A DNA stretch of 64,000 nucleotides from a virus. Each line of letters begins with the position of its first letter. Positions within the stretch are counted from its first letter, which is position 1. A program made the translations under genes and the position numbers. Location: IMG/VR virus record IMGVR_UViG_3300009157_000016, positions 1-64,000 of that record; one strand, given 5' to 3'. Below the pieces are notes generated by a model. That model ran no database searches. It worked only from the letters and a program-made list of their open reading frames with translations, and was not told the DNA's origin. This document shows, piece after piece, positions 6,170 to 61,285 of the stretch.

Positions 6170-6760
6170 ATGGCAAAGGGTATTGACTACGGTTTCACCG
6201 GCGTGAGCCGCGCGGCGCTTGACTACTGGCCCACGGGCAAGGCGGCGCAAGGCGGCATTGACTGCGGCCCACGGCCCACGCAAGCGCAGCTTGACGCGGC
6301 CGCCGTGCTACTGCCACGGCAGGGTACGGGCAAACACTTGGCGCTTGCCATGTACGGCCGTGAAGGCGGCGCGCTACAGGCGCAAGTGAGCCGCGTGACC
6401 GGTGACACGCAAGTGAACGTACTGCGCAACCTCATTGCCGCCGGCAAGGTTGTGGCGCGGCCGTTGCCGGGTGAGGGCAACGCCAAGCGCTACGCGTACG
6501 CGTTGCCGGGCGCGGCCAAGGGCAAGGGCAAGGGCGCGGCCAAGGTGACCGCCACGCCGGCCGCCAAGGTGACCGCCAAGGGCGCGGCCAAGCCGGCCGC
6601 CAAGGGCAAGGGCAAGGGCAACGTGCCCGCCGTGCCCGCCAAGCCTGACCGCGCGGCGCTTAAGCGCGCGGCTGACGCGCTTTTGGCCAAGCGCAAGCCG
6701 GCCGCCACGGTGGCCGCCACGCCGGCCGCCACGCCGGCCGGTGACAAGCCGGCCGCCTGA
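6170..6760 (+). CDS. Histone H1-like DNA-binding protein (196 aa)
   Basis: Residues 75-110 (GDTQVNVLRNLIAAGKVVAR, then a Gly-rich turn and KRYAYAL) look like the last helix and wing of a winged-helix domain. From about residue 115 the protein becomes a Lys/Ala/Gly/Pro tail with repeats such as KGKGKGAAK and TPAAK, the composition of histone H1 tails and bacterial H1-like proteins. It probably binds or compacts DNA. ATG 6170 follows AAAGGTTGAAGCA. The gene is much more GC-rich than the DNA to its left. A related winged-helix-plus-tail protein lies at 60344-61285. Function inferred from composition. Confidence 0.75.
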   Translation: MAKGIDYGFTGVSRAALDYWPTGKAAQGGIDCGPRPTQAQLDAAAVLLPRQGTGKHLALAMYGREGGALQAQVSRVTGDTQVNVLRNLIAAGKVVARPLPGEGNAKRYAYALPGAAKGKGKGAAKVTATPAAKVTAKGAAKPAAKGKGKGNVPAVPAKPDRAALKRAADALLAKRKPAATVAATPAATPAGDKPAA

Positions 6761-31123: not shown

Positions 31124-31771
31124 ATGGCATACCGCGACGCATTGTTCCCGACGGGGCTGGCCTACGGGTTCCGTGGCGGCCCCATGTTCAACACGACGGT
31201 CTTGGAGCTGGCAAGCGGCTTTGAGAAGCGGAACATCAACTGGAGCCAAGCCCGCGCTCAATATGACGTTTCGCATCTAGTCAAGAAGCCGGACACCTTT
31301 GCCGCGCTGCTTGACTGGTTCTTTGTCATGGAAGGCAGGGGCCACTCCTTCAAATTCTGGGACAACAAAGATGATACCATTACTGCGCAGTCGCTTGGTG
31401 ATGGTGACGGCGCGAAAACCGTCTACCAAATCTACAAAGAATACCGTGTCCAAGGCGTCTCCCAAGTCTTCACCTACCACCGCTGGATCACCAAAATCCA
31501 GCCGGCCCTCATCACCGGGGTCACGGTAGGCGGTGCGGCAAGAACTGAGAACGCGGTCGGTTCCACCGGTTTCACCGTAGACCGGAACACCGGCAAGATC
31601 ACGTTCAACAGCGCACCGGCACTGGACGCTGAGATCATCTTGGGCAGCGTGAAGTTCTACGTCCACGTGCGGCTCAACATTGACTACATGGACACGGAAT
31701 ACACGAATTGGGAAGCTATCTCGTGGGGTAGCATCCTGTTTCAGGAAGTCAGGGAGAAGGTCACCCCATGA
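31124..31771 (+). CDS. Distal tail protein, DUF2460 (215 aa)
   Basis: The start FPTGLAYGFRGGPMFNTTVL, then SGFEKRNINWSQARAQYDVS and WFFVMEGRGHSFKFWDNKDD, are hallmarks of DUF2460, the gp12 distal tail protein of gene transfer agents. It forms the ring at the tube tip that holds the hub. Confidence 0.88.
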   Translation: MAYRDALFPTGLAYGFRGGPMFNTTVLELASGFEKRNINWSQARAQYDVSHLVKKPDTFAALLDWFFVMEGRGHSFKFWDNKDDTITAQSLGDGDGAKTVYQIYKEYRVQGVSQVFTYHRWITKIQPALITGVTVGGAARTENAVGSTGFTVDRNTGKITFNSAPALDAEIILGSVKFYVHVRLNIDYMDTEYTNWEAISWGSILFQEVREKVTP

Positions 31772-33855: not shown

Positions 33856-34268
33856 CACGCGATGAGATTGTCGCCGAAGCGCGCAGCTACCTGGAGGTCC
33901 ATTTCAAGCTGCACGGCCGCAGTCGTGTCGGCATTGACTGCATTGGCCTTCTCATCGCGGTGGCCAAGTCCTTCGGCCAGACGATTGAGGACCGGGTCGA
34001 CTACTCGCTTCGCAGCCCGTTCGAGGTAATGCTGAACAAGCATCTGCGGGCACACTGCAATCCTGCCCCCATCACGCCTATCCGGCATGGGCAGATCCTC
34101 AAGTTCCGGCAGTCGCAGATTCCCATGCACGTAGGCATCCTGACGATGGACGGCAGGGTGCCTACGGTCATCAACGCCAATCTGCGTAAGCGCAAGGTCG
34201 TGGAAGAGCCGCTGACCGAGTGGAAGAACTTGCTGATGGAAATTCGCGAGTTCAAGGGAGTCGTCTGA
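33852..34268 (+). CDS. NlpC/P60-type tail peptidase (138 aa)
   Basis: Equivalent of GTA gp14. Catalytic Cys lies in GIDCIGLLIAVAKSFG (about residue 33) and His in MHVGILTMDGR (about 94), followed by the usual polar third residue region (VINAN). The enzyme cuts peptidoglycan peptides during DNA entry. ATGA overlap with the hub gene. Confidence 0.85.
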   Translation: MTRDEIVAEARSYLEVHFKLHGRSRVGIDCIGLLIAVAKSFGQTIEDRVDYSLRSPFEVMLNKHLRAHCNPAPITPIRHGQILKFRQSQIPMHVGILTMDGRVPTVINANLRKRKVVEEPLTEWKNLLMEIREFKGVV

Positions 34269-37200
34269 TGCAACTAGCTGTAGCCTTCGGCGCGCAAGGG
34301 CTTCTCAGCTCGGCCGGGTTGCTGCGGATTGGCCTTGGGGTCGGTTCCGCAGTTGCCATGTACATGCTTGGCAGCCGGGACAGTGAGAGCAACCGGCTCA
34401 ACGACCTCAAGGTGTCTTGCAGCACCTACGGGAAGGGTCTGCCCATTGTGTTCGGCACGATGCGCACGACCGGGAATATGATTTGGGCCACCGACTTTGA
34501 GGAGGAAAAATCCTACTTCGACTCCAAGGGCAAGGACATCACCGACAAGAAAAAGGCGGAGAAGAAGGGAACTGAGTTCTACGAATACTTCGCCAATTTC
34601 GCAATGGCCTTGTGTGAAGGTCCGGTTGATGAACTCCTGCGCGTATGGGCAGATGGGAACCTTATCTACGACAAGTACAACCCTGACAACGAGGACCTGG
34701 TCGGCCCCGGCTTCTCAACTGACGAAGAGGACGGCGGCAAGAGCGGCAAGACCGCCGGCAAGGGCAAGGGCAGTGAAGGCGGCGACTCAGGCCGCTTCGC
34801 TTTCCGCTTCTATGACGGCAGTGAGGAGCAGCTACAGGACCCGTTCATGGTGTCCAAGGAGGGCGTTGAGAAGGTCCCCGGCTACCGTGGTTGCTGCTAC
34901 ATCTTCTTTGAGCACTTCGCCCTGATGGACTTCGGCAACCGCTGCCCCACCATCACGGCCGAGGTCTCGGTCTTGAAGAAGCGGGCGGTCAGCTATGTCT
35001 ACGCCAAGCCCATCATGGATGAGGATGCGCCGCAGCCGGTTGACAACAATCTGGAAGACGCGGTGTACGTTGATCCCAATCGCTACCGCTGCTACGTGAT
35101 CAAGGACTCGGTGGAAGGCGGCCGGCTGGTTCAGGTCTACGACATCAGCACGCTGGAGGAAGTGACACGCGCCCGCATCACCGGCGAAGTGGACAGCATC
35201 CCGCAGTACAACGGCTTGGGCCAGTTCATAGGCTACGCGTCGCTCGACCTGGAGGCCCTGCATATCATTGGCGTCTCGGCCGAGGGTGATCTGGTAGGCG
35301 TGCCGGGCGGCGGCAACAGTCAGCCCATCGTCTTCCTTGATCCCAACACGTTCACTGCAAAGTTCGTGTTTGGTGCTTCGTCGGCCGACCTCAGCAACAC
35401 CGACTTAAGCATCCAGCACGCGGAATGGGCGGTGCCGCTTATGACGATGAGCGTGGACCCGGTGAGCGGGGAAACCACGCCTTACTTCGTGACCGGTATC
35501 ATCAGCCAGTTCGGTGACTTGGCGTTCTTCCAGAACGTCGGCGGGGTGTACAACTACACCTACCAGAACACTGCCATTCCCGGCAGCAGCCATTTTATCT
35601 TCCCCGGCCTGCCTGACGTGGACAGCTCGTTCATGTATGTGCAGACAGAAGGTAAGATCTATCGCTGCAACACGGTCGGCGCTCCCGTTGAAGGGACAAT
35701 GTTCGGTCAGGCTGACACAAGCGTCCTGATCTATGAGCCTACGCTGCTCCCGGCTGACATAAGCATCAGCGCGACGACTGTCCCGTCGGTGTTCGTGGGG
35801 GCTGAGTGCATTGGCTTCTTGGAGCAGATCAGCTCCAACGATCCGGCACGCGACGGCCTGTGGGCGGTCAAGCTGGACCCGTTTGACGGGACGGAACTGT
35901 GGCGCGGCAAGATCACCGACTCCAGCGGGTGGTACTACAGCGGCAGGATGCAGCAGACGCCTATCATCACCGGCAACAAGATCATGTGGCTGGGGCAGAC
36001 GGTGTCCTCAACCTACACCGTGTTCGAGGTGGACTACCGCACGCTGGAAATCAACAGCTTCATCCTACCCGAGGAGGGTTCCCCCAACGACGGCTTCGCC
36101 GGTCAGTTTCAGGCGTACTGGGCACCGGGCGGCTACATCCTGATTGGCGGCCTCATTGAGGATGGCTCTGAGTTTGACGGCGAGTGGTCAATCTTCCTTG
36201 CCAAGGTTGACAAGCTGTCTCAAGTGGCCGTGGGGGTGCGGGACATCTGCTCCGGCTTGTGTGAGCGCGTGGGCCTGCCGCCTGAGCGCTTCAATCTGTC
36301 GTCGCTGACGGACGACGAGATCATCGGCTACATCATTGAGGAACCGACCGGGGCGCGCAACGTCATTGAGGATCTGACGAAGATCTTCATGTTTGACGTG
36401 GTTGAGAGCGACTACGCGCTGAAATTCGTCACGCGCGGCGGTCCGTCCATCTTGACCATCCCGCAGGAGGACTTGGGCATCATCATTGAGGATACCCATG
36501 AGCCCTACAAGGAGACGACCGTCCAAGCCATTGACTGTCCCATGACGGTCAACATTGGATACGTCAACCCGGAGGAAGACTACAAGAACGGGATGCAGCA
36601 CTACAAGCGCCCGCGCAGCCCCATGCCGGTCATGCATTCCCGTGACGTGCTTGAGATCTCGTATCCTATGGCCATGACACCTGACTTCGCCAAGCAGACG
36701 GCGCAGAAGGTGTGCGTCAGCATTTGGGCAGAGCGCACGAACTACGACACGCTCCTGCCTTGGGAATACCTTGCCTACGACCCGGCTGACGTGGTGACGT
36801 TCGTGATGGATGATGGCTTCTCATTCGTCACGCGCTTGCTCAAGATGGACTTGGGCGGTGACTTCTCAATTGAGTCTGAGGCGTGCGGCTACCAGCCGGG
36901 CTCCTACAGCAGCGACATCCTTGCGGTGAAGCCCGGCCATACCTTCCCCATTCCCAGCCGGCCAGCGCCGGTTGTCTTCCCCATCGTGCTTGACGTGCCG
37001 TTCCTTAGTGACGGCGACGCCTCGGCGGGTGGTGGTGGCTTCTCATACTATTGGGGAGCGGGTGCCTACAGCCCCGGCCTCAAGTACGCTGCCCTAGAAC
37101 GGCGCGTGACACCGGGCGACTGGGAGCTTATGGACGCGACCAGCCATGAGGCTATCTACGGAACGGTTTTTGACACCGTGCCGCCGCCTCCCAACGGGCC

Positions 37201-37999
37201 GTTCGCAACGGATGATCAGACAGTGCTCACCCTAGCGCAGGCCCACAGTTTCCAGTTCGGCACGCAACAGTTCGAGTGGGTAAGCATTCCTGCTGCCAAC
37301 TGGCCGTCAGAGGACAACATGGTCATCATCGGAGACGAGGTGATCTTGTTCCGTGACGTGAACGAACTAGGCGACGGGCGGGTTGAGATCAGTCACCTGA
37401 TCCGTGGCTGGCGCGGCACTGAGAACGCCGCCTATGCTCACGTCGGGAAGTTCAATGAGACGTGGATCGTGGTGACGACCAACGGCGTGCGGGACGTGGC
37501 TGAGGACATCAATCTGATCAACACGCAGTTCCAGTTCAAGGCGGCCTCACCGGGTCTCATGATTAGCATCCCGCAAGTCTATCCCAAGGTGCTGACCGGT
37601 GCGTCCTTGAAGCCCTATGCGCCCGGCTATTTCAACCGGCTGGAGGACACGCCGGGGGCGGGTGACATCCGCATCACGTGGCAGCGTCGCACGCGCTACG
37701 GCGGCGGTCTCAAGAACGGGACGGCGGTGGTGCCGCTGAATGAGGAAGCGGAGGTCTATGACGCCTACATCCTTGCCGCACCATTTGACGCGACAACCTT
37801 CGACCCGGCCGACCCTGAAACCTTCGTGCGTGAGTTCCCCGGCCTGACCAGTCCGCAGTTGGACTACCTAGCGGCTGACTTGGCTACGGACGGCTTCACG
37901 CTGGCGAGCCCGCTGCACGTTGTAGTCTTCCAAATCAGTGCTACGGTAGGGCGTGGATTCCCCGGTAGCACTACCCTGTATCATTCCGTCGTGACGTGA
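34268..37999 (+). CDS. Tail tip/host-recognition protein, GTA gp15-like, with inserted propeller-like region (1,243 aa)
   Basis: ATG 34268 overlaps the peptidase stop (TGATG). The N-terminal hydrophobic segment, CSTYGKGLPIVFGTMRTTGN and YRGCCYIFFEHFALMDFGNR (fGNRxP motif) are typical of the gp15 'megatron' family. The C-terminal half has the tail-protein signature region (DICSGLCERVGLPPERFNLS, TAQKVCVSIWAERTNYD). Residues about 240-640 look different: repeated strand-turn units with DPxTF/DPFDG turns (WAVKLDPFDGTELWRGKITD), suggesting a beta-propeller inserted between the two halves, perhaps the receptor-binding part. Confidence 0.85.
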   Translation: MQLAVAFGAQGLLSSAGLLRIGLGVGSAVAMYMLGSRDSESNRLNDLKVSCSTYGKGLPIVFGTMRTTGNMIWATDFEEEKSYFDSKGKDITDKKKAEKKGTEFYEYFANFAMALCEGPVDELLRVWADGNLIYDKYNPDNEDLVGPGFSTDEEDGGKSGKTAGKGKGSEGGDSGRFAFRFYDGSEEQLQDPFMVSKEGVEKVPGYRGCCYIFFEHFALMDFGNRCPTITAEVSVLKKRAVSYVYAKPIMDEDAPQPVDNNLEDAVYVDPNRYRCYVIKDSVEGGRLVQVYDISTLEEVTRARITGEVDSIPQYNGLGQFIGYASLDLEALHIIGVSAEGDLVGVPGGGNSQPIVFLDPNTFTAKFVFGASSADLSNTDLSIQHAEWAVPLMTMSVDPVSGETTPYFVTGIISQFGDLAFFQNVGGVYNYTYQNTAIPGSSHFIFPGLPDVDSSFMYVQTEGKIYRCNTVGAPVEGTMFGQADTSVLIYEPTLLPADISISATTVPSVFVGAECIGFLEQISSNDPARDGLWAVKLDPFDGTELWRGKITDSSGWYYSGRMQQTPIITGNKIMWLGQTVSSTYTVFEVDYRTLEINSFILPEEGSPNDGFAGQFQAYWAPGGYILIGGLIEDGSEFDGEWSIFLAKVDKLSQVAVGVRDICSGLCERVGLPPERFNLSSLTDDEIIGYIIEEPTGARNVIEDLTKIFMFDVVESDYALKFVTRGGPSILTIPQEDLGIIIEDTHEPYKETTVQAIDCPMTVNIGYVNPEEDYKNGMQHYKRPRSPMPVMHSRDVLEISYPMAMTPDFAKQTAQKVCVSIWAERTNYDTLLPWEYLAYDPADVVTFVMDDGFSFVTRLLKMDLGGDFSIESEACGYQPGSYSSDILAVKPGHTFPIPSRPAPVVFPIVLDVPFLSDGDASAGGGGFSYYWGAGAYSPGLKYAALERRVTPGDWELMDATSHEAIYGTVFDTVPPPPNGPFATDDQTVLTLAQAHSFQFGTQQFEWVSIPAANWPSEDNMVIIGDEVILFRDVNELGDGRVEISHLIRGWRGTENAAYAHVGKFNETWIVVTTNGVRDVAEDINLINTQFQFKAASPGLMISIPQVYPKVLTGASLKPYAPGYFNRLEDTPGAGDIRITWQRRTRYGGGLKNGTAVVPLNEEAEVYDAYILAAPFDATTFDPADPETFVREFPGLTSPQLDYLAADLATDGFTLASPLHVVVFQISATVGRGFPGSTTLYHSVVT

Positions 38000-42385: not shown

Positions 42386-42832
42386 ATGGTTGAATTAGAT
42401 CTGAAGTCTGAGAAGATCAGTCTGACGGTCTTGATTGGTTTTCTCACCATGTTCGCATCCTTGATATTGGCTTATGCCGATCTAAGGAATGGTCTTGGTG
42501 ACGCAGATGCTTTTATTGAGAACCAACGAAGTGAAAACACGCGAATGTTTCGCAAGATAGATGATCACATTGAGCTATTGACTGCCACTATCGCACGGGT
42601 CGACAGGTTGGAGTTTCAGATCGAGCAGATGCAGCAAAATGCCACGAATACGACTGAGCGCATTGGTGTCGTTACCGAGAGCTTCTCCAATCAGATGAGC
42701 AGCGCGAACACTTTGATCAGTCGCATCAATATCGAGCTGGCTATTGTCAATCAGATGCTTAGGCAGCTAGGATATAGGAACGACGATGATCGAGGACTGA
42801 GTGGTCTGGCTCCGGATGAAGTTGGTCGCTAA
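42386..42832 (+). CDS. Membrane-anchored coiled-coil protein (148 aa)
   Basis: ATG 42386 is six bases after AGGAG; the frame opens earlier at a GTG overlapping the previous stop, but that start lacks a site. A membrane span at about 12-30 (VLIGFLTMFASLILAYA) is followed by a polar coiled coil. Last rightward gene: its TAA overlaps the TAG of the convergent gene by two bases. Confidence 0.6.
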   Translation: MVELDLKSEKISLTVLIGFLTMFASLILAYADLRNGLGDADAFIENQRSENTRMFRKIDDHIELLTATIARVDRLEFQIEQMQQNATNTTERIGVVTESFSNQMSSANTLISRINIELAIVNQMLRQLGYRNDDDRGLSGLAPDEVGR

Positions 42833-43560
42833 GGAATGACTGTGATGGGGCGGTCCACGCCCTTGCCAGTCAGAAGTTCTTCATCACGCTCTTGCAGCAC
42901 TTTCTGCAAGCGCCGCGTTCCTTCCACAATCAGATCATTCTCAACGAACTCAGAGGCGGTAGGCGCTAGGCCCATCTGCATGAGTTCCTTGGCGCGCTCA
43001 GACGGCTCGTAGATGGGACCCTGTGGCTTCTTGCGCTGATGCTGATACTTCCCGTCGTAGGGCTTGTTGGTAGGATGGTCCAGCCAGTCAAAGATCATCT
43101 GGCAGACCGGATCACCCTTCTTGTAGGTCACGTTGGCGGTTCCAAGGTTGACCAGCTCCAACGTGCCGTTGCCCCAAAAGCCGGGATCAAAGAACGTGTT
43201 GAAGGCGGACACGAAGACCCGCGCGTAGGTGCTTTTGTCGCACACGCCGCCTGACACTTGGTCGGGCATGTAGAAGTCTTCCAGTGTGTAGGCCAGCGCC
43301 GCCATAGGCGGGTTGTTGCTCAGCTTGTCCTTGAGCAGCTCCACGTTTGCGAAGCCGTGCTCCAGGATGTGGTCGGAGATGATATGGGCGGGATTGATCC
43401 CAAGGATCAGATCGTGGTCAATGTGGCAGTCGTAGGAAGCCGAGCTGAGCCCGCCTGACTTGCCGTTGATCACGACCTTCTCTCGCCGGAACGGAGAGAT
43501 CATCGGCTGGTTTGTGTCTGCGCACAACGCTAGAATGCTTTGATGGGACAGCCGAGCCAT
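42829..43560 (-). CDS. dCTP deaminase/dUTPase family protein (243 aa)
   Basis: SSASYDCHIDHDLILGIN, VCDKSTYARVFVSAFNTFFD, GFWGNGTLELVNLGTANVTY and KKGDPVCQMIFDW follow the motif order of the trimeric Dcd/Dut family. The enzyme would remove dCTP or dUTP and feed dTTP synthesis. The usual catalytic Glu of Dcd is not clearly placed, so the exact reaction is uncertain. ATG 43560 follows AGGAGAAGGTA and is chosen over an upstream frame inside the next gene. Confidence 0.78.
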   Translation of the reverse strand: MARLSHQSILALCADTNQPMISPFRREKVVINGKSGGLSSASYDCHIDHDLILGINPAHIISDHILEHGFANVELLKDKLSNNPPMAALAYTLEDFYMPDQVSGGVCDKSTYARVFVSAFNTFFDPGFWGNGTLELVNLGTANVTYKKGDPVCQMIFDWLDHPTNKPYDGKYQHQRKKPQGPIYEPSERAKELMQMGLAPTASEFVENDLIVEGTRRLQKVLQERDEELLTGKGVDRPITVIP

Positions 43561-43877
43561 TACCTTCTCCTCTTGCTCCGGTAGACCTTCTCCGGGCTTG
43601 CTAGGACCCGCGTGCAAAGCTTGTGATGCTTCTCGCACCAACTCTTACCCGGCAAAACGGGGTCTCCGCAATAGCGTGCTTTGGGGTCCCGCAGTTCACC
43701 GTAGATGTACTTGCATTCGTCAAAGTTGGGTATGTTGCCTAGACGGAACTTGGCAAGCTTCTTCGCTTTGCGTTCTTTGTAAGCTTCCAAGTTGAAATCA
43801 GGCGGCAGGCGTTCCCGGTGCTTAGGCGGCCATAGCCGCGCAATGTCCTCCTCAGTGAGGCGAACCCGGTGTTTCAC
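43560..43877 (-). CDS. GcrA-like Cys/His motif protein with RVRL N-terminus (105 aa)
   Basis: The GTG at 43877 overlaps the SbcC stop (GTGA). Residues 55-90 read C-x-Y-x-YG...YCGDPVLPG...WCEKHH, the pattern of the C-terminal zinc-like motif of alphaproteobacterial cell-cycle regulator GcrA (CxxPxG...FCG...YCxxH). GcrA acts with sigma70 at methylated promoters. The N-terminal DNA-binding helix set of GcrA is only partly recognisable (LTEEDIARLWPP). Begins MKHRVRL. Function inferred. Confidence 0.6.
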   Translation of the reverse strand: MKHRVRLTEEDIARLWPPKHRERLPPDFNLEAYKERKAKKLAKFRLGNIPNFDECKYIYGELRDPKARYCGDPVLPGKSWCEKHHKLCTRVLASPEKVYRSKRRR

Positions 43878-48345: not shown

Positions 48346-48679
48346 CTACCCGCTCCCCTTTATCGTTGATAGGCCACTTCTCACCGCTGATAAGACGGAT
48401 AGTGACCATTTCCTGATGACGGTTCATCATGTCGACTTCGTATTCCGCCTTGCCGTTGGCGACCTCAATGGTGAACCGCATTCCCCTTAGCTTCTCGGGG
48501 TCGCTGATGTCCAAGCCGAACTCACGAAGCATTGCGAACGTCGTCGTGGTGGAGTGCATCCACGGAGTGTCTATTGTGGTGTAGCGCTGGCCGTAGATGG
48601 GCTCCACATCTTTGCCGAATGCGGTATCAGGAACCTCGCCGGTGTGCAGCGAGAATTGCATCCTGCGTAGCTCAACCAT
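48329..48679 (-). CDS. Unknown protein (116 aa)
   Basis: ATG 48679 follows AGGAGGAAGT, inside the end of the RecA-like gene. Begins MVELRRMQFSLHTGEVPDTA and is beta-rich in the C-terminal half (YEVDMMNRHQEMVTIRLISG). Function unknown. Confidence 0.65.
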   Translation of the reverse strand: MVELRRMQFSLHTGEVPDTAFGKDVEPIYGQRYTTIDTPWMHSTTTTFAMLREFGLDISDPEKLRGMRFTIEVANGKAEYEVDMMNRHQEMVTIRLISGEKWPINDKGERVDEEGR

Positions 48680-49724
48680 ACTTCCTCCTCTTGGGTATGA
48701 ACTCGTCCTCGATCTCATTCCAGAGACGACGGACGACCTTGTTGACGCGACGTGTCTCGCGGTCAAACTCCTTGTCGCTCATGTCGTTCAGCGCGTCGCG
48801 GTACTGAGTGAACTCCTTCTTCTCCGCCGGTATGTCAGCCGCCTTGAGACGCTTGATGGACTTGAGCCAGTCCAGCGAAGCCCCAAGGTCATCAATCCCG
48901 TAGCCAAAGATGAAGTCCATGTCGCACGACCTGAACGGGAAGCCGACCTTGTTCTTCTTGCATAGGGCTTTGATGCCGATCCCGTAGACGCGCTCAACGC
49001 CGCGAATGGTGCGCTTAAGCTGCTCCTTGTGGGACAGCCAGAGGATGTGCGTGGCGTAGAAGTCAAGCGCTTTGCCGCCAGCGCGGCGGTGCTTCTCCCC
49101 AAAGCTGACGTTGATGTTGTCCCGCACCTGTGAGACGATAACAAGGCAGACGCGGGCCTTGCCGATCTTCTTGGTCAGCTTGCGGAACAATTCAGACGCC
49201 ATCTTGGCCTTTGCCATGCCGTAGGTGGCGTCACCAATCTCACGCTCCAGTTCCTTCTCGTCGCTGAGGCCGTCATAGCTGTCCAGCACGTACATGCCGG
49301 GCACGTCGTCTTTGATGCAGTCGTCGCAGAAGCGTTCCAAGTCCCGTGCAAACGCTTCAATGGTGGTGATGGGGGCGTCCGGATCGCCGAAGTCTATGTC
49401 GTCAACCGGCGCGCCCATAGCCTGCGCATAGTCCATGTCGTAGGCTTCTTCTGTCTCCCGGTAGGCTGCCTTTCCCTTCGGGTAGTCCATGCAGAAGTTT
49501 GTCAGCCCCTCAGTGGCAAGCGCCGTCTTGGCCGTGCTCTTGTCGCCCACGATGTTGATCATACGTCCTAGGACGTAGCCGCCGCTGAGAACGTTATCAA
49601 GCAGCCCGCAGCCGCTTGACGTGAATTCCAGCTTCTCCTTTTCGGAGGTGAAATAGAGGTTGTCCTCTTTTCTCAGCTTGTCATAAGCCGTTTCATCCTC
49701 AAGCTTTACGCGCCGCTTTGCCAT
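48672..49724 (-). CDS. RecA-like recombinase (350 aa)
   Basis: ATG 49724 follows TGGAGGCCAG. Walker A is GDKSTAKT at 60-67, with Ala where cellular RecA has Gly. YVLDSYDGLSDEKE supplies the Walker B region, and VCLVIVSQVRDNINVSFG the loop L1-like segment. It should form filaments on ssDNA with the nearby gp32-like protein. Begins MAKRRVKLEDE, a form of the terminal peptide. Confidence 0.85.
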   Translation of the reverse strand: MAKRRVKLEDETAYDKLRKEDNLYFTSEKEKLEFTSSGCGLLDNVLSGGYVLGRMINIVGDKSTAKTALATEGLTNFCMDYPKGKAAYRETEEAYDMDYAQAMGAPVDDIDFGDPDAPITTIEAFARDLERFCDDCIKDDVPGMYVLDSYDGLSDEKELEREIGDATYGMAKAKMASELFRKLTKKIGKARVCLVIVSQVRDNINVSFGEKHRRAGGKALDFYATHILWLSHKEQLKRTIRGVERVYGIGIKALCKKNKVGFPFRSCDMDFIFGYGIDDLGASLDWLKSIKRLKAADIPAEKKEFTQYRDALNDMSDKEFDRETRRVNKVVRRLWNEIEDEFIPKRRKYG

Positions 49725-49860
49725 CTGGCCTCCAGTTGTAGACACGGCGCTGCTTGGGAAGGGGGTTGACCGCCAGATAATCCTGCCAGCCCTCGTATCC
49801 CATCGCCCGTATCTGACTTTGATCTCTGTCCAACCTTGCCCAAGGGATTTCGTCATCCAT
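49699..49860 (-). CDS. Possible small protein before the recombinase (53 aa)
   Basis: ATG 49860 opens a 53-codon frame overlapping the recombinase start by 26 nt. The product, beginning MDDEIPWARLDRDQSQIRAM and containing YEGWQDYLAVNPLP, has protein-like composition. The ribosome binding site is weak. It would otherwise leave a 200-bp gap in a tightly packed operon. Confidence 0.45.
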   Translation of the reverse strand: MDDEIPWARLDRDQSQIRAMGYEGWQDYLAVNPLPKQRRVYNWRPDGKAARKA

Positions 49861-49865
49861 CTGCT

Positions 49866-49917
49866 CTGCAAGAGGGCGGTTATCTAGCTGGTGGGCGTAG
49901 ATGACGCCCTCTTGCAG
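49866..49917 (-). terminator. Perfect 13-bp inverted repeat between two recombination genes
   Basis: CTGCAAGAGGGCG (49866-49878) is exactly complementary to CGCCCTCTTGCAG (49905-49917), with a 26-nt loop and no T run. It lies just after the ssDNA-binding protein stop. It may limit readthrough, protect the abundant upstream mRNA, or bind a protein. Confidence 0.55.
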
Positions 49918-49931
49918 GAGGTAGGCAGCCC

Positions 49932-51503
49932 TTAGTCCCGGTCGCGCCTCCGGCGGTCCCGGTCGTCGTCCGGGTCGTCATAGCGGGTGCGCTTCTTGTC
50001 ACCGCGATCGTCGTCACGGTCGCGCTTGCGGTCACGGTCGTCGTCATCATCCCGACCGCCGCGCTTCTCGCCGACGTCACGTTTGCGGTCGTCGTCCTTG
50101 TCCCGGTCCTTGCTGCGCTCACGCATCTCAGCAAGACGGTCCTTCACGTTGCGGCGCTCACCCTTGTCGTCGTCATCGCGCTTCCGGTCCCGGTCCCGGT
50201 CATCGTCATCACGGTCGCGACTGCGGCTGCCACGGTCAACGTCATCCCGGTCACGGCTGCGGCGGTCGTCCTTGTCGTCGTCACGGTCACGCCCGCGCCG
50301 GTCATCACGGTCGTCATCCCGGTCACGGCTGGCACGACGATCATCCCGGTCATCATCACGGTCACGCCGGCCACGACGATCGTCGTCGTCTTCGCTCCTC
50401 TTCCGTGACGACCCACGGTCATCATCACGATCGTCGTCCCGGCCACGGCCGCGCACCGAACCACGATCATCATCATCCCGGTCACGCCGGCCACGGCCTG
50501 AGCCGCGTTCGTCATCATCCCGGTCACGGCTGCGCCCGCCGCGCCGGTCGTCATCCCGGTCACGGTCACGGCTACGGCCACCACGACGATCGTCTTTGTC
50601 GTCGTCGTCCGTTTCAACGCGGACGTGGCCGCCGAAGGCCGCTTCAATGTGGTCGTAGTCGTGGTATTGCAGGACATCAGGGATGGGATTTTCCTTGATG
50701 TAGTCCAGCACGTCCTGCATGTCACGCTTGTTGTCCAAGATGGGACCGCTGGGGAGGATCTTCATCTTGGACGCCGGGTACTTGGTATTGCGGCCGGTGC
50801 CTTCACGGTAGAAGCGGATGTCGTTCCCGTCGTAAGGGTCATCAATGTAGATGAGCGCCTTGGTGTCCTCGTCAACCGTCAGGTTGGCGATGTCCTTGTC
50901 GAACGTCCACGCCATTGCCCAAAACTGAGCGCCTTCGTCAGGAGCGTTCTTGTCAAGGACCCACACGCCCTTCCGCTTCTTGGGCGTCAGGGCTTTGGCC
51001 AGCTTCTCGTCGCCGTCCTTTTCAGCATCACGGCGGGCCTCATCCAGCGGGTCCCTCTTGCCCAGCATCTTGCTGAGGCTGAGGTACGTCTGCGAGTCGA
51101 CGCCAATGCCGTAGTTGCAGTAGATGTCGTAGCAGTAGTACTTCGCATCGTCCCACGTGGGCGGCAGGATGCGGATCGTGTTCTTGCCTTCCTTTGGCTT
51201 GAACACCTTGATCCCATCCTTTACGATGGAGTCGAAGTTCCCTCCGCTTTGGTTGGCGGCTTCCCGCACGGCTTCACGCGACGTGCGCTTGTAGACAAAG
51301 CTACCACCACGACTGGAGCCGCGATCATCATCACGGTCACGATCACGCGAACGACCACGGTCACGATCCCGGTCATCGTCGTCCCTCCCACGGCTTGAGC
51401 GCCTGTCGTCATCATCCCGGCCACGGCGACGATCGTCGTCCCGGTCACGGTCGCGATCCCGGTCATCATCCCGGTCACGGCGTCTATCGTCATCACGTGC
51501 CAT
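49932..51503 (-). CDS. gp32-like ssDNA-binding protein with huge Asp-Arg tails (523 aa)
   Basis: The core, about residues 68-297, has NTIRILPPTWDDAKYYCYDI, WVLDKNAPDEGAQFWAMAW, YIDDPYDGNDIRFYREGTG and TKYPASKMKILPSGP, the pattern of T4 gp32-like phage ssDNA-binding proteins. It is flanked by an N-terminal tail of about 67 residues and a C-terminal tail of about 225 residues made almost only of Asp, Arg, Gly, Ser and Lys (DDDRDRDRDRDDDRRRG). The end contains KKRTRYDD, close to the terminal peptide. T4 gp32 has a short acidic tail only. The tails are surely disordered and may drive condensation. Confidence 0.8.
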   Translation of the reverse strand: MARDDDRRRDRDDDRDRDRDRDDDRRRGRDDDDRRSSRGRDDDDRDRDRGRSRDRDRDDDRGSSRGGSFVYKRTSREAVREAANQSGGNFDSIVKDGIKVFKPKEGKNTIRILPPTWDDAKYYCYDIYCNYGIGVDSQTYLSLSKMLGKRDPLDEARRDAEKDGDEKLAKALTPKKRKGVWVLDKNAPDEGAQFWAMAWTFDKDIANLTVDEDTKALIYIDDPYDGNDIRFYREGTGRNTKYPASKMKILPSGPILDNKRDMQDVLDYIKENPIPDVLQYHDYDHIEAAFGGHVRVETDDDDKDDRRGGRSRDRDRDDDRRGGRSRDRDDDERGSGRGRRDRDDDDRGSVRGRGRDDDRDDDRGSSRKRSEDDDDRRGRRDRDDDRDDRRASRDRDDDRDDRRGRDRDDDKDDRRSRDRDDVDRGSRSRDRDDDDRDRDRKRDDDDKGERRNVKDRLAEMRERSKDRDKDDDRKRDVGEKRGGRDDDDDRDRKRDRDDDRGDKKRTRYDDPDDDRDRRRRDRD

Positions 51504-51518
51504 ACACTTCTCTCCTCG

Positions 51519-51689
51519 TCAGGCGCTCTCGGCGCGGGTTTCTTTCTGCCCATGCTGGATAAGGCTCAGGAGTCCCTGAACGTATGCCAGCTTGGCGCGG
51601 TAGTATGCGATGAACACGAAGTTCAAGAAGCAATACAGCAGCGCCAGAACAAGGATCAGGACTGCTACGCCCAGTACGTCCTCAGTCAT
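51519..51689 (-). CDS. Small membrane protein (56 aa)
   Basis: ATG 51689 lies inside the end of the upstream gene and follows GTGAGGTACG. A single membrane span at about 5-30 (VLGVAVLILVLALLYCFLNF) is followed by a polar helix. It lies between replication genes, and could tether something to the membrane. Function unknown. Confidence 0.6.
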   Translation of the reverse strand: MTEDVLGVAVLILVLALLYCFLNFVFIAYYRAKLAYVQGLLSLIQHGQKETRAESA

Positions 51690-52182
51690 CGTACCTCACC
51701 CTTCGTTTGGAACGGCCTTCAATGATCCGCTCCATGTTGCGCTTGGAACGATACTCGTCAGCCCGGCCGCCTTTGGTGGCGTCCGTCTGATAGTAGTTCG
51801 CTACGTACAGCCCTGCCAGATCCTTGAGCATGTAGGACCGCATTGAGAAGGACTCCTTCAACGTCTGGCACCTGTCCGCCCATTCCTTGGCGTCAAGGTA
51901 GCTCTTGGTGGCCTCAATGTGGTCGTCATGTATCTCAATGGCGTTCTTGATAGCCGCCTCACTGGCCTTGCCGTCCGACCGTTCCAGTTCCCTCCTGCAC
52001 TCAAAGTATAGGCGCGCGTCGATTTGGGACAGTTCCTCTTTGGCTGTGTCCCGGTCAGCGTTTGCCGCTGCCAATAGATCGCCGGCTTCATAGAACAATT
52101 CTGGTTGCCTGACCAATTCCATGTCTAGGTCAAGGCGGTCAATTTGCAGCGCACGGCGCAGTTCGCTAGGTTTTGCGGGCAT
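51682..52182 (-). CDS. Helical replication-region protein ending in KRRVRYDD (166 aa)
   Basis: All-helical (LRRALQIDRLDLDMELVRQP, AAANADRDTAKEELSQIDAR, SYMLKDLAGLYVANYY). I associate the pattern with phage proteins encoded beside ssDNA-binding proteins, and a UvsY-like mediator role is possible but unproven. Its C-terminal KRRVRYDD is nearly the same as KKRTRYDD in the ssDNA-binding protein. Good GGAGGGGTGAACC site. Confidence 0.65.
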   Translation of the reverse strand: MPAKPSELRRALQIDRLDLDMELVRQPELFYEAGDLLAAANADRDTAKEELSQIDARLYFECRRELERSDGKASEAAIKNAIEIHDDHIEATKSYLDAKEWADRCQTLKESFSMRSYMLKDLAGLYVANYYQTDATKGGRADEYRSKRNMERIIEGRSKRRVRYDD

Positions 52183-52214: not shown

Positions 52215-53192
52215 CTAGGCCCGGTGGAGTTCCAGAACCAAGCCAATGGAAACGTAGAGGGGAGCGTACTTGGCGGAATTGTCATAGGGCGTTGAGAAGC
52301 ATTCGATGATCCTCAGCAGGCTCGCAGCGCGGCGGTGATCAGTCGTCTTGGCCGCCACCTTCGCCATGTAGTGGCACGTAACGATGCGAATGCTTTCAGC
52401 GTCCTGATTGGCTTCCTCCATGTCCTTGCAGATGCGCATGGCGTCCTTCCATGTGCCCTTGGGCTTCATGAGGAACTGGCAGAAGTCATTGATTTCCTTC
52501 GTCTCACCGGCCAGCCTTAGCGCCTCACGCGCGTCGGTCACCGTTTCGCAGTACTCAACCTTCTCAAGGTAGGTCAAAGCCTGCCGTGGTGAGCCGCCGC
52601 TGTTCTCAGCAATCAGCTCTAGTATCTCATCCTCCACCTTGAGGTCCGCCTTGTCCATGACCTCGGCAAGGATGAGCAGAATTTCATCCTCACTGAGCGG
52701 CTTGAGATGGTAGTCAATGCACCGCGTCTTGATGGTGGCAGGAACCTTGCCGGGCAGCGTGGTGCAGAAGAACCAGTACACGTGCTTGGGCGGTTCCTCC
52801 GTGGCCTTGAGAATGCTGTCCCATGCGTTGCTGGACAGCTTGTGGCACTCATCCACGATGATTCCTTTGACCGGACTGTCGCCAATTGCCCGGTAGTTGG
52901 CCTTCTGGACAATGCTGCGCATGGCGTCCACACCGGTATGCGTGGCAGCGTCCACGTCGAGGATGTTCGCCAGCGTGATAGTGGCATCGTCGCTCTTGGC
53001 CCCAAGCAGGGCAAACTCGTTCGCCACAATGCGGGCAAGCGTCGTCTTGCCAAGGCCGGAGCCGCCCGTGAACAGGAAGGTGTGGGCACGCCCCTCCTTC
53101 ACGACCTTGCGCAAGGACTTCACGACGGCGTCGTGTCCAATGACGTCCTTGAATACGTTCGGCCGATAGGCGGTGTGTAGTGACGTGCTCAT
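52215..53192 (-). CDS. Clamp loader ATPase (325 aa)
   Basis: AAA+ protein of the DnaX/RFC small-subunit kind: Walker A GGSGLGKT at 43-50, Walker B IIVDECHKL at about 110-118, sensor 1 WFFCTT, arginine-finger region IKTRCI (the SRC motif changed to TRC) and sensor 2 GGSPRQAL at about 210. It loads the sliding clamp encoded at 56423-57478. Confidence 0.88.
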   Translation of the reverse strand: MSTSLHTAYRPNVFKDVIGHDAVVKSLRKVVKEGRAHTFLFTGGSGLGKTTLARIVANEFALLGAKSDDATITLANILDVDAATHTGVDAMRSIVQKANYRAIGDSPVKGIIVDECHKLSSNAWDSILKATEEPPKHVYWFFCTTLPGKVPATIKTRCIDYHLKPLSEDEILLILAEVMDKADLKVEDEILELIAENSGGSPRQALTYLEKVEYCETVTDAREALRLAGETKEINDFCQFLMKPKGTWKDAMRICKDMEEANQDAESIRIVTCHYMAKVAAKTTDHRRAASLLRIIECFSTPYDNSAKYAPLYVSIGLVLELHRA

Positions 53193-53548: not shown

Positions 53549-56266
53549 TTAGATACCCTGAGAATCGAATGACTTGTAGTTCTCGCTCCAGTACTTGCCC
53601 ACGGGCTCAAGCTTGTTCCACTTCTTGCCAATGGACACTTCCACGCTCATAGGCACGTTGATGAAATCATACGGGAGCAGAAGCAGTTCGCGTGCCAAGT
53701 AGCTGATCTCATCTGCCAGTATGCTGTCCTTGTCAGGCATCATGAACGTCAGGTCGTCATGGATTTGCATGATGGGATGACGGTAGCGGATCTTATGCTT
53801 GAGAGAGCTGCGGCTGATCCTCACCATGCCGTCGTTCACAATGTCAGCCGCCAAGGACTGGATGGGGCTGTTGTACAGTTCGTGTCGGCTCATGGGATAG
53901 TAGCGGCGGCGGCCGGTGAACGTTTCCACGTAACCCACGTCGTAGTAGGTCCGCATGGTCTCGTCCTGCCACTCCTTGAGGCCGGAGAACGTTTCCCAAA
54001 ACTCCTCAAAGATGTCCTGCGCCACGTTGTCAGGCATGGCCTCGCCAAGGAAGGGTAGGAAGTAGCTGGCAACCGACGGCTCAGCCGCACCAAAGATAAC
54101 AGGGAACACCATCTTGTTCTTGACCAGTGAGCGCGCACCCTTCAATGCGTCCTCGTCATTCTTCCCCTGCTTCTCCTTAAAGTAGTCGAACAGCCACGGC
54201 CAGCGCTTGCCAATTTTGAGCGCCCATTCCTTGTGAACGTCGTATTCCTTCCACGTAGCACCGACCATGTTCTTGTCATTGCAGAACATGCAGGCGGTAC
54301 ACCACTCCAACTGCCCAAAGTCCACGCTAACGAAGACGTGGCCTTCCAGCGCTTCAACTTGCTCCCTGATCCAAGCGTCCTTGTGCTTGGGCCAGTTCTG
54401 CATGTTGGGGTCGTCCGAACTGAGTCGGGCGGTGGTGGTGAAGGTCGTGTTGAAGGAAGTGTGGAGCTTGCCGTCGGGAAAGATGAGCGTGCCGTCAGGC
54501 AGGATCATCTGGTCGACGTACGTGCTCTTCATCTTCACTTTGTTGCGCAGCTTGATAATCAGCGGCGCAAGCGGATGGTCTATCTTCTCAAGGACGGCTT
54601 TGTCAACCTTCTCAGTGACTTTATCTGAGTCCTTTTTGTCCTTGACGAAGACCTCAGGCCGCTTTAGGTAGTCACGGAATATGGTAAGGACCTGCGGCTG
54701 CGACTCAGGATTGAATTCCCCTTTATGCTCACTGACATACTTCTTGACCACTTTGAGGCCAAGGATGTCATTTACGATACCCTTGACTTCGTCTTCCAGC
54801 TTGCCTTGCAGGCGCTTGGCGGTCTTCTGGTTGATGGGGACGCCGTAGTGCTGCATGAGAGCCACCGCGCCCTGACGCGGCATGGCCATCTCATAGACAT
54901 GCTCCTGCCTGATGTCCCTGATAAGCTTGTCCTGATGGAACCAGAGTTGCAGCGTGGCGCGCGTGTCAGCGCCATTGTAGATGAGGACCTGATCGTAGGG
55001 GCTTTTGCGCAGGTCCTTCTTGTCCAGCTTGAACTGGCTCTTGATGTCTATGCCGAAGTGCTGGCGTGTGAGGAAGCCTAGCTTTTGGTATTGCGAAGCG
55101 TGATCGTCCTGACCCTTCTCGTTTGGCCCTTTGCGGCCGTCAAGGATGTAGGCTTGGACCATTGTGTCTTCCCACGAGTTGTGGTGAACAATGTCTTCGC
55201 CAAAGTAGAAGATGTACCACTCCATCTCAAATGGAGAGTTGTGCGCAATCTTGGGGATGTCACGGCGGCGTATCAACGCCTCAAGCCGGTCAAGGATCTT
55301 CTGCCGCTGCGCTTTGGACCAGTTGGCCTTGGGATGGTCGACTCCGAACGAAAACGTTCTTAGTTTTAGGTGCCTGTCATAGTAGGAAAAGGCGGCCGTC
55401 AGAATGATAGCGCCGGTGCGGTAGGGTCTGAGAGGCCACGTCTCAAGGTCGGTGGCGTAGCAGGCAACTCCTCTCTCAATGTCGTCGAACTCCCGCATCA
55501 GGGAGTCAAAGTCATCCTCGGGGCGCTCACCGCTGTAGGTGTTGACGTCCTTCTTGACAGTCTGCTGAGTCCATACTTCCGGCCACGGCGGATCGTCGTC
55601 CATGAACCGCCATATCTGCTCAAAGTCCAGCTTCCACGCGCCACCTACTCGGCCGTTCAGCGGGCGTCTGTCATCCTTGGCCGACCGCAGGACGTAGGCA
55701 GGGTGATTGGTGGGGAAGAACCAGCACTCATGCTTTCCAATGGTGACCGCAAAGAAGCGGCCCCGCATACCTTGCATGTCTTTCGTGCCAAGCATCCACT
55801 GCAAGGCTGGGATGCCAAGGCCCACGATCAGCTTGGGGGCAGCTTCCTCAATGGCGGCGGTGACGTAGCCGCGACAGCACTCCTGCTCAATCCACTCCGG
55901 CGGCCGTATCTTACCCTCAGCGTTTTTGGGGAAGTGCCTGACTGTGTTCCCGTAACCGCAGTTGTCATAGTATTCGTTGGGGATCATGGACTTGAGAAGC
56001 TTGCCTGACTTCCCAATGAACGGTACGCCCTCCTGTTCCTCCTGCGGACCCGGTGCCTCACCTAGGAAGAAAATGTCGCATCTGCGTGGTACGTCTTCAC
56101 GGACCTCATTGCCGGCACGTGAGAGGGGGCAAGCGCGACAGCCTAGGCGTTGCAGCGTTTCCGAGCTTTGCTTCGTTTGCTGGCCTACCGAAGACCGGCG
56201 GGGGCCGGTTTTGTCGGCGCCCTTTTTCGCGTTCGCCTTATCTGCTTTCTGGTAGAAGAAGCCCAT
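53549..56266 (-). CDS. polA: Uracil-DNA glycosylase (family 4-like)/DNA polymerase I fusion (905 aa)
   Basis: ATG 56266 overlaps the upstream TGA (TGATG). Residues about 40-220 are a UDG4-like domain: CRACPLS, FLGEAPGPQEEQEGVPFIGK, NHPAYVL. The polymerase follows: 3'-5' exonuclease with DLETW (about 271), AHNSPFEMEW and YNGADTRATLQLW; motif A SVDFGQLEWC (about 647); O-helix region VKNKMVFPVIFG (about 718); motif C QIHDDLTF (about 835). There is no 5'-3' exonuclease. In the glycosylase the place of the third Fe-S cysteine appears as VRHF (His). Likely the replicative polymerase, with uracil removal attached. Confidence 0.88.
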   Translation of the reverse strand: MGFFYQKADKANAKKGADKTGPRRSSVGQQTKQSSETLQRLGCRACPLSRAGNEVREDVPRRCDIFFLGEAPGPQEEQEGVPFIGKSGKLLKSMIPNEYYDNCGYGNTVRHFPKNAEGKIRPPEWIEQECCRGYVTAAIEEAAPKLIVGLGIPALQWMLGTKDMQGMRGRFFAVTIGKHECWFFPTNHPAYVLRSAKDDRRPLNGRVGGAWKLDFEQIWRFMDDDPPWPEVWTQQTVKKDVNTYSGERPEDDFDSLMREFDDIERGVACYATDLETWPLRPYRTGAIILTAAFSYYDRHLKLRTFSFGVDHPKANWSKAQRQKILDRLEALIRRRDIPKIAHNSPFEMEWYIFYFGEDIVHHNSWEDTMVQAYILDGRKGPNEKGQDDHASQYQKLGFLTRQHFGIDIKSQFKLDKKDLRKSPYDQVLIYNGADTRATLQLWFHQDKLIRDIRQEHVYEMAMPRQGAVALMQHYGVPINQKTAKRLQGKLEDEVKGIVNDILGLKVVKKYVSEHKGEFNPESQPQVLTIFRDYLKRPEVFVKDKKDSDKVTEKVDKAVLEKIDHPLAPLIIKLRNKVKMKSTYVDQMILPDGTLIFPDGKLHTSFNTTFTTTARLSSDDPNMQNWPKHKDAWIREQVEALEGHVFVSVDFGQLEWCTACMFCNDKNMVGATWKEYDVHKEWALKIGKRWPWLFDYFKEKQGKNDEDALKGARSLVKNKMVFPVIFGAAEPSVASYFLPFLGEAMPDNVAQDIFEEFWETFSGLKEWQDETMRTYYDVGYVETFTGRRRYYPMSRHELYNSPIQSLAADIVNDGMVRISRSSLKHKIRYRHPIMQIHDDLTFMMPDKDSILADEISYLARELLLLPYDFINVPMSVEVSIGKKWNKLEPVGKYWSENYKSFDSQGI

Positions 56267-56421
56267 CACTTTTCCGCTTTGAGTTGGTCGAGTCGCTTGC
56301 GGCATGTGGCAAGCAAGTCACGGTTCGCGAAGTCACCGTGACGCTTGAGTTCTGCCTCCTGCACCGCCAGCATGACGTCGACGATTTCGATCAGGGCGTT
56401 AACCTTCTGCACATCCGGCAT
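56266..56421 (-). CDS. Small helical protein (51 aa)
   Basis: ATG 56421 follows GGAGACTGAC. A single long amphipathic helix (VNALIEIVDVMLAVQEAELK) ending in a basic segment. Placed between sliding clamp and polymerase with overlaps at both ends, so a polymerase accessory is possible. Function unknown. Confidence 0.6.
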   Translation of the reverse strand: MPDVQKVNALIEIVDVMLAVQEAELKRHGDFANRDLLATCRKRLDQLKAEK

Positions 56422-60343: not shown

Positions 60344-61285
60344 TCAGTCGTCGCGGCGGCGGCGGCTGCCCTTCCGGTCGTCATCGTCATCCTTGCGGCT
60401 GGACCGCTTGGAGTCCTTGGCATCGTCGTCGTCACGGCTGCGGCGCTTGGACGAGGAAGCCTCCTTGTCGTCGTCGCGGCTGCGGCGCTTGCCCTTGTCG
60501 TCATCGTCGTCACGGGAGCGGCGCTTGCTGCTGCCCTTGTCGTCGTCATCACGGGACCGCTTCCGGTCGCCGTCGTCGGAGTCACGCTCCTTGTTCGAAG
60601 CGGTGGTCATTTTCCGCTTCTGCGCCGAGGACAGGTCATCCTTGTGCGTGACCTTGATCAGACCGTCGTAGCGCTCGACAAGGTGCCCATCCTTGGTCAG
60701 CTTCTTGAGCACGTTGTTCTGCGGGCCGCCGGTCTTGTCCTTGATGGTCTTCATGGACGCGCCGCCCTCGAAGAGCTTCACGGCGTCGGAGACCTTGGTG
60801 CCGACGACGAGCCCGTAGCGGTCGCGCTTCGCACCCTCGTAGTCACGGGGCGACTTCTTTTTGGAGCCCTTGTCGTCGTCCTTGTCACGGCCGCGGATGG
60901 ATTTGCGGTCGTCCTTGTCGTCGTCCTTGGAGGAACGACGGCCGCGCCGGTCATCCTTGTCCTCGTCCTTGTCCTTCGACTTGGCCGACTTGCGGTCATC
61001 GTCGTCGTCCTTGGACGAACGCTTGCCGCCCTTGCGGTCGTCGTCCTTGCCGCCCTTCTCCTCCTCGAAGTCCTCGATATCCTGGTCGGTCTTCAAGGCG
61101 TCCAGCGCGTTGTTCGCCCAGTCGGTCGCCGGGTCTGAGACCGCGTTGAACTCGTCGTCGGGAAGCTTGTTGACTTCCTTGGCGAGCGCGGCAAGGTAGT
61201 CCTGCCGGGTCTTGTAGTCGTCCTCGTCCTTCTTGAAGCCGGTCGCCTTGATCAGCTCCTTCTCGATTGCATGGAGTTTGGCCAT
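60344..61285 (-). CDS. Winged-helix protein with mixed-charge disordered regions (313 aa)
   Basis: The N-terminal 75 residues are helical. A first Lys/Asp/Arg/Ser stretch follows (about 80-140). Next comes a compact segment at about 150-205 (GTKVSDAVKLFEGGASMKTI, NNVLKKLTKDGHLVERYDGL) that looks like a winged helix. The last 100 residues are repeats such as KRRSRDDDDDKG. The winged-helix part resembles that of the H1-like protein at 6170. Likely an abundant DNA-binding or DNA-organising protein; this is inferred. Confidence 0.7.
   Translation of the reverse strand: MAKLHAIEKELIKATGFKKDEDDYKTRQDYLAALAKEVNKLPDDEFNAVSDPATDWANNALDALKTDQDIEDFEEEKGGKDDDRKGGKRSSKDDDDDRKSAKSKDKDEDKDDRRGRRSSKDDDKDDRKSIRGRDKDDDKGSKKKSPRDYEGAKRDRYGLVVGTKVSDAVKLFEGGASMKTIKDKTGGPQNNVLKKLTKDGHLVERYDGLIKVTHKDDLSSAQKRKMTTASNKERDSDDGDRKRSRDDDDKGSSKRRSRDDDDDKGKRRSRDDDKEASSSKRRSRDDDDAKDSKRSSRKDDDDDRKGSRRRRDD

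Follow-up and report, generated by a model that had tools for sequence, protein, structure and literature searches.

The window analysed here is a stretch of 64,000 nucleotides (positions 1 to 64,000 of IMG/VR virus record IMGVR_UViG_3300009157_000016). On its minus strand lies an open reading frame whose product is the replicative ssDNA-binding protein (SSB) of the phage (Table 1). The frame opens with an ATG that follows ACGAGGAGAGAAGTGT and is preceded by a good Shine-Dalgarno sequence (ACGAGGAGAGAAGTGTATG). The SSB gene sits between a RecA-like gene on one side and the genes of a 166-aa protein, a clamp loader and a polymerase fused to uracil-DNA-glycosylase (UDG) on the other. The polymerase gene was present in 59 of the 81 relative loci, a count that refers, as do those of the RecA-like and clamp-loader genes in Table 1, to the few kilobases fetched at each locus. 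The same gene order, with small insertions, was seen in Vibrio phage MAR10 and Edwardsiella phage ZHS. The UDG-polymerase gene adjoins clamp loader and sliding clamp genes, and a dCTP-deaminase-like protein is encoded at 42829-43641 on the minus strand; together with the polymerase fusion, it may reflect an unusual handling of pyrimidines.

No nucleotide-level relatives were found among phage records, and the sole match in a search of genome contigs was a contig of a MAG labelled Deltaproteobacteria. A hint of an alphaproteobacterial host comes from the tail genes at 31768-37999 (plus strand), whose type (Phage_phiJL001_Gp84_N, Rcc01698_C) is that of phiJL001 and the Rhodobacter gene-transfer agent.

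Table 1. Features of the SSB gene, its neighbours and the second mixed-charge gene, in positions of the window (FCR, fraction of charged residues)
Feature	Position	Strand	Evidence or remark
ssDNA-binding protein gene, gp32-type, two polyampholyte tails	49932..51503	-	523 aa
gp32-type OB-fold core, residues 69-302	50598..51299	-	Pfam PF08804, PDB profile match, AF2, Foldseek, alignment
N-terminal mixed-charge tail, residues 1-68	51300..51503	-	FCR 0.79
C-terminal mixed-charge tail, residues 303-523 (221 aa)	49935..50597	-	FCR 0.81, net charge per residue -0.02
Basic amphipathic tip motif NVKDRLAEMRERSK, residues 452-465	50109..50150	-	within C-terminal tail
Degenerate 36/39-bp tandem array in C-terminal tail coding DNA	50240..50381	.	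TRF, 74-76% matches
Degenerate 24-bp tandem array in N-terminal tail coding DNA	51405..51494	.	TRF, 67% matches
RecA/UvsX-like recombinase, syntenic	48672..49871	-	78/81 relative loci
166-aa protein, no assigned function, syntenic	51682..52182	-	57/81 relative loci
Clamp-loader ATPase, syntenic	52215..53192	-	71/81 relative loci
Family A DNA polymerase, N-terminal uracil-DNA-glycosylase domain	53549..56305	-	UDG PF03167, 66.5 bits
Second protein of mixed charge (313 aa), short conserved domain between D/K/R tails	60344..61285	-	

The first-pass annotation had proposed a gp32-like core of about 230 residues. A core of ordinary composition (FCR 0.34) is indeed present at about residues 68-302 (~235 aa), and it matches Pfam gp32 (PF08804) with 30.6 bits against a cut-off of 26.8. 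Among the PHROGs, the SSB matches phrog_1192 (SSB) and phrog_34306 (function listed as unknown). A profile of six relatives matched the T4 and RB69 gp32 chains in the PDB with E values of about 1e-7 to 1e-6. An AlphaFold2 model of the core, obtained from 30 aligned relatives, reached a mean pLDDT of 89, and gp32 structures were its only significant matches in Foldseek (2a1k, 8gme, 1gpc and 2atq), the best of them (2a1k, 8gme and 1gpc) with E values of 7e-8 to 4e-7 and TM scores of 0.52-0.63. Sequence and predicted structure together show the fold of the core to be the gp32 OB-fold, and cooperative binding to ssDNA is predicted from this type. The family phrog_34306 can be annotated as the gp32-type SSB of Mardecavirus-like phages.

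At the four alignment positions that we take to be the zinc ligands of gp32, the window protein has N, S, D and D in place of H-C-C-C, so that all four are changed. The zinc knuckle is retained in ZHS and others and is lost also in MAR10 and L012; because it varies within the family, its loss is, judging from the alignment, not decisive for membership of the gp32 type. The acidic C-terminal domain expected of a gp32-type SSB is likewise absent from the window, and for this reason the protein is filed as a gp32-type variant.

The core is flanked by an N-terminal tail of 41% Asp and 38% Arg (net charge per residue -0.03) and a C-terminal tail of 38.5% Asp and 33.5% Arg, with Gly, Ser and Lys besides. 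The first-pass annotation had counted nearly 300 residues of Asp-Arg tails, and the total is 289. Its description of a D/R/G/S/K polyampholyte of the disordered type at both ends was borne out as well: both tails are ~80% charged, their disorder being read from composition. Their near-neutral net charge sets them apart from the tails of T4 gp32 and E. coli SSB, which are acidic, and the likeness to splicing-factor tails that it had remarked on holds in that they resemble eukaryotic Arg-rich mixed-charge domains (R-MCDs). Like these, they are dominated by Asp and Arg, have a high FCR and a near-zero net charge, and are well mixed in their charge patterning (kappa-like values of 0.05 and 0.08, not exceeding shuffles). 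In the 108-kb contig, the SSB frame is the charge outlier, with 44% of both charge signs per 50-aa stretch against 28% for the next best among the frames retained by a greedy scan, which discarded the frame of the second charged protein (60344-61285) on account of overlap.

The GAN codons of the C-terminal tail are almost all GAC or GAT (85 Asp against 6 Glu), and the third base of its CGN codons is free (CGT 30, CGC 22, CGG 20). Because the Asp codons vary between GAC and GAT, Glu is rare and the third base of the Arg codons varies, the pattern points to selection on the protein and not to a non-coding repeat. Origin of the tails by chance or from a non-coding repeat is ruled out by the codon patterns, the Shine-Dalgarno sequence and the homologues. 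Other open frames over the tail (e.g. 49987-50658 on the plus and 50144-50725 on the minus strand) are side effects of the GC-rich repeats, and nothing marks them as genes.

Alignment searches yielded 82 SSB relatives, the window protein included, which fell into 47 clusters at 60% core identity; they come from IMG/VR contigs and a few isolates, unequally sampled. Their cores are often only about 40% identical across the clade. The C-terminal tails measure 40-231 aa (median 118), have a median FCR of 0.58 against 0.32 for the cores (47 clusters), and reach an FCR of at least 0.5 in 33 of the 47 clusters. On these sequences, a long charged C-terminal tail is the usual trait of the family. Tails of at least 60 aa with at least 20% of both charge signs occur in only 21 of the 47 clusters, and the C-terminal tail of the window protein is the richest in Asp and Arg of all 82 (72%). 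Most of the relatives' tails are strongly charge-segregated, unlike those of the window, and no significant correlation was found between tail composition and charge segregation across the relatives.

Syntenic homologues without tails had been named beforehand as one of the findings that would speak against the first-pass proposal, and the survey went part of the way in this direction. L114, with clamp-loader and polymerase genes upstream, falls with the window protein in a subclade of six members that has full support, yet its tail measures only 79 aa with an FCR of 0.34 and it has no N-terminal tail; the FCR of the C-terminal tail of L161 is 0.08. Elsewhere, long charged tails are usual. Since L114 and L161 have little of it, the D/R composition is, on the sequence comparison, not indispensable. 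The N-terminal tail is absent from the five nearest relatives (L108, L111, L113, L114 and L115; group support 100/100), and a separate group of 12 rows around ZHS (support 88/95) has N-terminal tails of 28-124 aa with similar composition; the bootstrap behind these support values had not settled, and the figure of 124 aa, from L028, counts in some upstream sequence that probably stays untranslated. The N-terminal tail of the window protein probably arose separately from that of the ZHS group, which makes at least two gains, with repeated loss as a possible alternative. In 16 of the 47 clusters, the window not among them, the C-terminal tail contains a helical module of ~50 aa, modelled as three helices (pLDDT 79). 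An HeH/SAP identity was considered for it; Pfam gave nothing meaningful and Foldseek nothing significant, and we claim only a helical module. In place of the D/R tail of its relatives, the annotated SSB of Vibrio phage BH21-A1 (L007, 3082-4194) has a hydrophobic, V/A/M-rich end, an apparent frameshift in the tail that may be an error or real.

In T4 gp32, T7 gp2.5 and E. coli SSB, the tip at the C-terminus is acidic. An acidic tail has been regarded as a hallmark of every prokaryotic and phage SSB (PMC5686142), and a full-text search of one open-access library found no phage SSB with a polyampholyte tail or a basic tip. Many relatives of the window protein carry a basic amphipathic motif, which usually stands at or near the extreme C-terminus; neither this motif nor the leaning of the clade towards a basic end had been remarked on in the first-pass annotation. 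The pattern [RK][LM]xx[ML][RK] was found within the last 25 aa in 17 of the 47 clusters against 0.09 expected from shuffled tails, and a looser form in 24 of 47 against 1.6, an expectation that overstates the independence of related sequences and is corrected only in part by the 60% clustering. About half of the clusters have no motif even in the looser form. The fuller form is L-x-x-M-R-x-R-R, as in LREMRNRR (L014), LGEMRRRR (ZHS), LAAMKNRR (L025), LERMKKRR (L030) and LDRMRARR (L108). Net charge over the last 20 residues is positive in 35 of the 47 clusters (median +4); in the outgroup, which belongs to the same superfamily, all 39 of 39 flavobacterial-type proteins end acidic with an FDDLFNE-like tip (net -4 to -2). 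The window motif reads RLAEMRER at residues 456-463 (LAEMRERS at 457-464) and is not terminal, being followed by 58 more D/R-rich residues. The SSBs of L117 and L161 end SEDIPY and EFGDVPY instead of in a basic tip. These ends resemble DDDIPF, the tip of host SSB, and may mimic its docking.

We consider that the C-terminal tail is best read as a flexible, net-neutral tether that presents a basic docking tip, and we give this reading an even chance, with condensation as its main rival. The tail would be soluble and extended and would hold the tip out to a partner, for which a replisome protein, the RecA-like protein and DNA are candidates. The acidic C-domain of gp32 blocks the ssDNA site (PMC5892887). 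Because the window tail has almost no net charge, it would be unable to serve as an acidic strip folding back over the ssDNA groove as in T4 gp32, and DNA binding should be little salt-gated. Acidic gating may persist in some relatives because strongly acidic blocks precede the basic end, for example in L015 (net -0.39). The added D/R length and the N-terminal tail could provide weak multivalent contacts between tails and help SSB-coated ssDNA to cluster, which would tune a tendency to condense already present in SSBs.

The support for a tether comes from the gp32 core, the synteny, the family-wide charge of the tails, the tip enrichment, the basic ends, the N-terminal tails in two subclades and the contrast with the acidic tails of the literature. 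The C-terminal tail is also as conserved as the core or more so in L004/L093 (87% against 80%) and L004/L028 (81% against 73%), which argues for the same reading. The non-terminal tip of the window, the motif-free clusters and the acidic blocks kept by some relatives argue against it, as do the tails that outpace their cores in some pairs, being less conserved in L098/L100 (82% against 96%) and L123/L129 (77% against 98%).

The DNA that encodes the tails had been described as minisatellite-like and the tail length as variable, and each claim stood in part. TRF detected the arrays in Table 1 and also some arrays of 12-24 bp in the SSB gene, and 12-15-mers recur in the C-terminal tail DNA above the level of synonymous-codon shuffles; the arrays are degenerate, and no exact repeat of at least 24 nt was found. 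Tail length varies among relatives but not between two near-identical contigs: the sister contig L001, from another metagenome, is 99.87% identical over 9.9 kb and has exactly the same tail lengths. The two SSBs differ by a single amino acid in the tail (V against D at residue 422) and another in the core (D against E at residue 118). The N- and C-terminal tail DNAs have 22 pairs of 15-mers in common against 5.0 expected, a number that none of 300 synonymous shuffles reached. This is consistent with tail DNA having been copied between the two ends, with a codon-context effect as a possible alternative. The tails also use other codons (CGT, GAT) than the polymerase and the core do. The tails might be a product of drift: slippage or recombination would expand short D/R-coding units and copy them from tail to tail, the resulting polyampholyte being tolerated as soluble and neutral. 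We think this quite unlikely. Drift would account for the 12-15-mers that recur within the C-terminal tail and between the tails, for the codon use and for the range of tail lengths among relatives (40-231 aa), but it sits poorly with the high charge kept over most of a clade with such divergent cores, the scarcity of GAY-to-Glu changes among the codons of the window, the tail lengths that are stable between L004 and L093, and the conserved tip and helical module inside the tail.

The first-pass annotation had suggested that a mixed-charge tail could bring about phase separation or a replication compartment, a suggestion not supported in that form. The main rival to a tether is that the Arg-rich mixed-charge tails act as the scaffold of a condensate, gathering SSB-coated ssDNA and like-tailed proteins (e.g. 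that of 60344-61285) into a replication compartment from which the host SSB is excluded by tail incompatibility. We regard this as doubtful but as a real possibility. The tail composition matches that of R-MCDs, which partition into nuclear speckles (PMC9324279), and two tails per monomer would bring multivalency. E. coli SSB condenses, and its linker decides the co-condensation compatibility of variants (PMC12143593); T4 gp32 forms droplets with a crowder (PMC11951158). Because of these two precedents, a tail-based role in the identity or tuning of condensates is credible by analogy. However, T4 gp32 condenses without such tails, so that condensation would not need them. In peptides, phase separation was seen with segregated D12R12 but not with alternating (DR)12, and localisation was diffuse when the net charge was clearly negative, although (DR)50, which is longer, could still be found in the nuclear speckles of cells (PMC9324279). 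The window tails are well mixed and slightly net negative; by this analogy, condensation of the protein is possible but not favoured by its patterning.

The presence of a second polyampholyte protein in the same phage would also suit a condensate, and this protein is a possible co-partitioning partner of the SSB. Its domain resembles a winged helix by eye only and gave no match in Pfam, the PDB or phage records, and its one relative is L107 (40%). L107 has G/E- and A/K/P-rich tails and not D/R tails, although its phage carries the charged-tail SSB L108 (R/D/E-rich), and ZHS is without a second such protein; both points weigh against a condensate. The single pair available does not support the idea that the SSB and this protein co-vary in tail type. 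The product of 6170-6760 (plus strand) has an Ala/Lys/Pro-rich, histone-H1-like C-terminus of low complexity, with 12/24-bp DNA repeats.

Some defence systems respond to phage SSBs. A further reading, which we hold to be highly improbable, is evasion: the acidic tip would have given way to the unusual tail under recognition of canonical SSBs, or of their acidic tips, by host factors or defence systems. The fast and variable evolution of the tail in some pairs, the fact that much of the clade has lost the acidic tip and the host-like DIPY/DVPY ends of L117 and L161 would suit evasion, whereas a family that spans very different metagenomes and hosts would not.

In its widest form, a tether with a basic tip would define an unnamed, widespread class of gp32-type phage SSBs with reversed tail polarity, in which a charge-balanced disordered tether, almost pure Asp/Arg at its most extreme, and a conserved basic docking helix recruit the replisome and gather SSB-ssDNA in a phase specific to the phage. 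The tether would then be a natural D/R mixed-charge domain by which replication inside a bacterium is organised; we judge this extension unlikely. Acidic C-termini explain both partner docking and the gating of DNA binding, and the rule that all prokaryotic and phage SSBs have them (PMC5686142) is broken by a clade with charge-balanced tails and basic tips. The clade lends itself to testing which functions of an SSB depend on an acidic tail. The window protein offers a clean D/R mixed-charge domain in a prokaryotic virus, outside splicing and on an easily assayed protein, and its relatives, which differ in tail length, charge pattern and presence of the N-terminal tail, form a ready series for the study of mixed-charge disorder.

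Among known systems, T4 and RB69 gp32 share with the window protein the core fold and sequence profile, a disordered C-terminal extension and a RecA/UvsX-type recombinase in the same phage. In gp32 the N-domain is short (residues 1-21) and the 48-aa C-domain (254-301) is acidic (PMC5892887), whereas the window protein has near-neutral D/R tails of 68 and 221 aa, no zinc ligands and a basic tip motif in place of the acidic tip. The Mardecavirus SSB (MAR10 gp073, phrog_34306) has the same gene order, a 42% identical core, a C-terminal tail with R/D/S/G stretches and the basic tip VRGMRRNRR; it differs in having almost no N-terminal tail, a shorter and less charged C-terminal tail (FCR 0.5) and a helical tail module that the window lacks. 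The ZHS SSB (UNA00810) agrees in gene order, in D/R tails at both ends and in the tip KLGEMRRRR, but it belongs to another subclade, has the helical module in its C-terminal tail, keeps the zinc knuckle and is less extreme in composition. The Arg-enriched mixed-charge domains of nuclear speckles (U1-70K, NELFE) are likewise D/R-rich, near-neutral and of low complexity; the likeness is by composition alone, without homology, and the window sequence is that of a bacterial virus, with a gp32 fold instead of an RNA-binding protein. With E. coli SSB the window protein shares the layout of an OB core, a low-complexity or disordered linker and a short conserved tip, whereas the OB family, the oligomer and the linker composition are different, and the tip is acidic in E. 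coli SSB and mostly basic in the clade.
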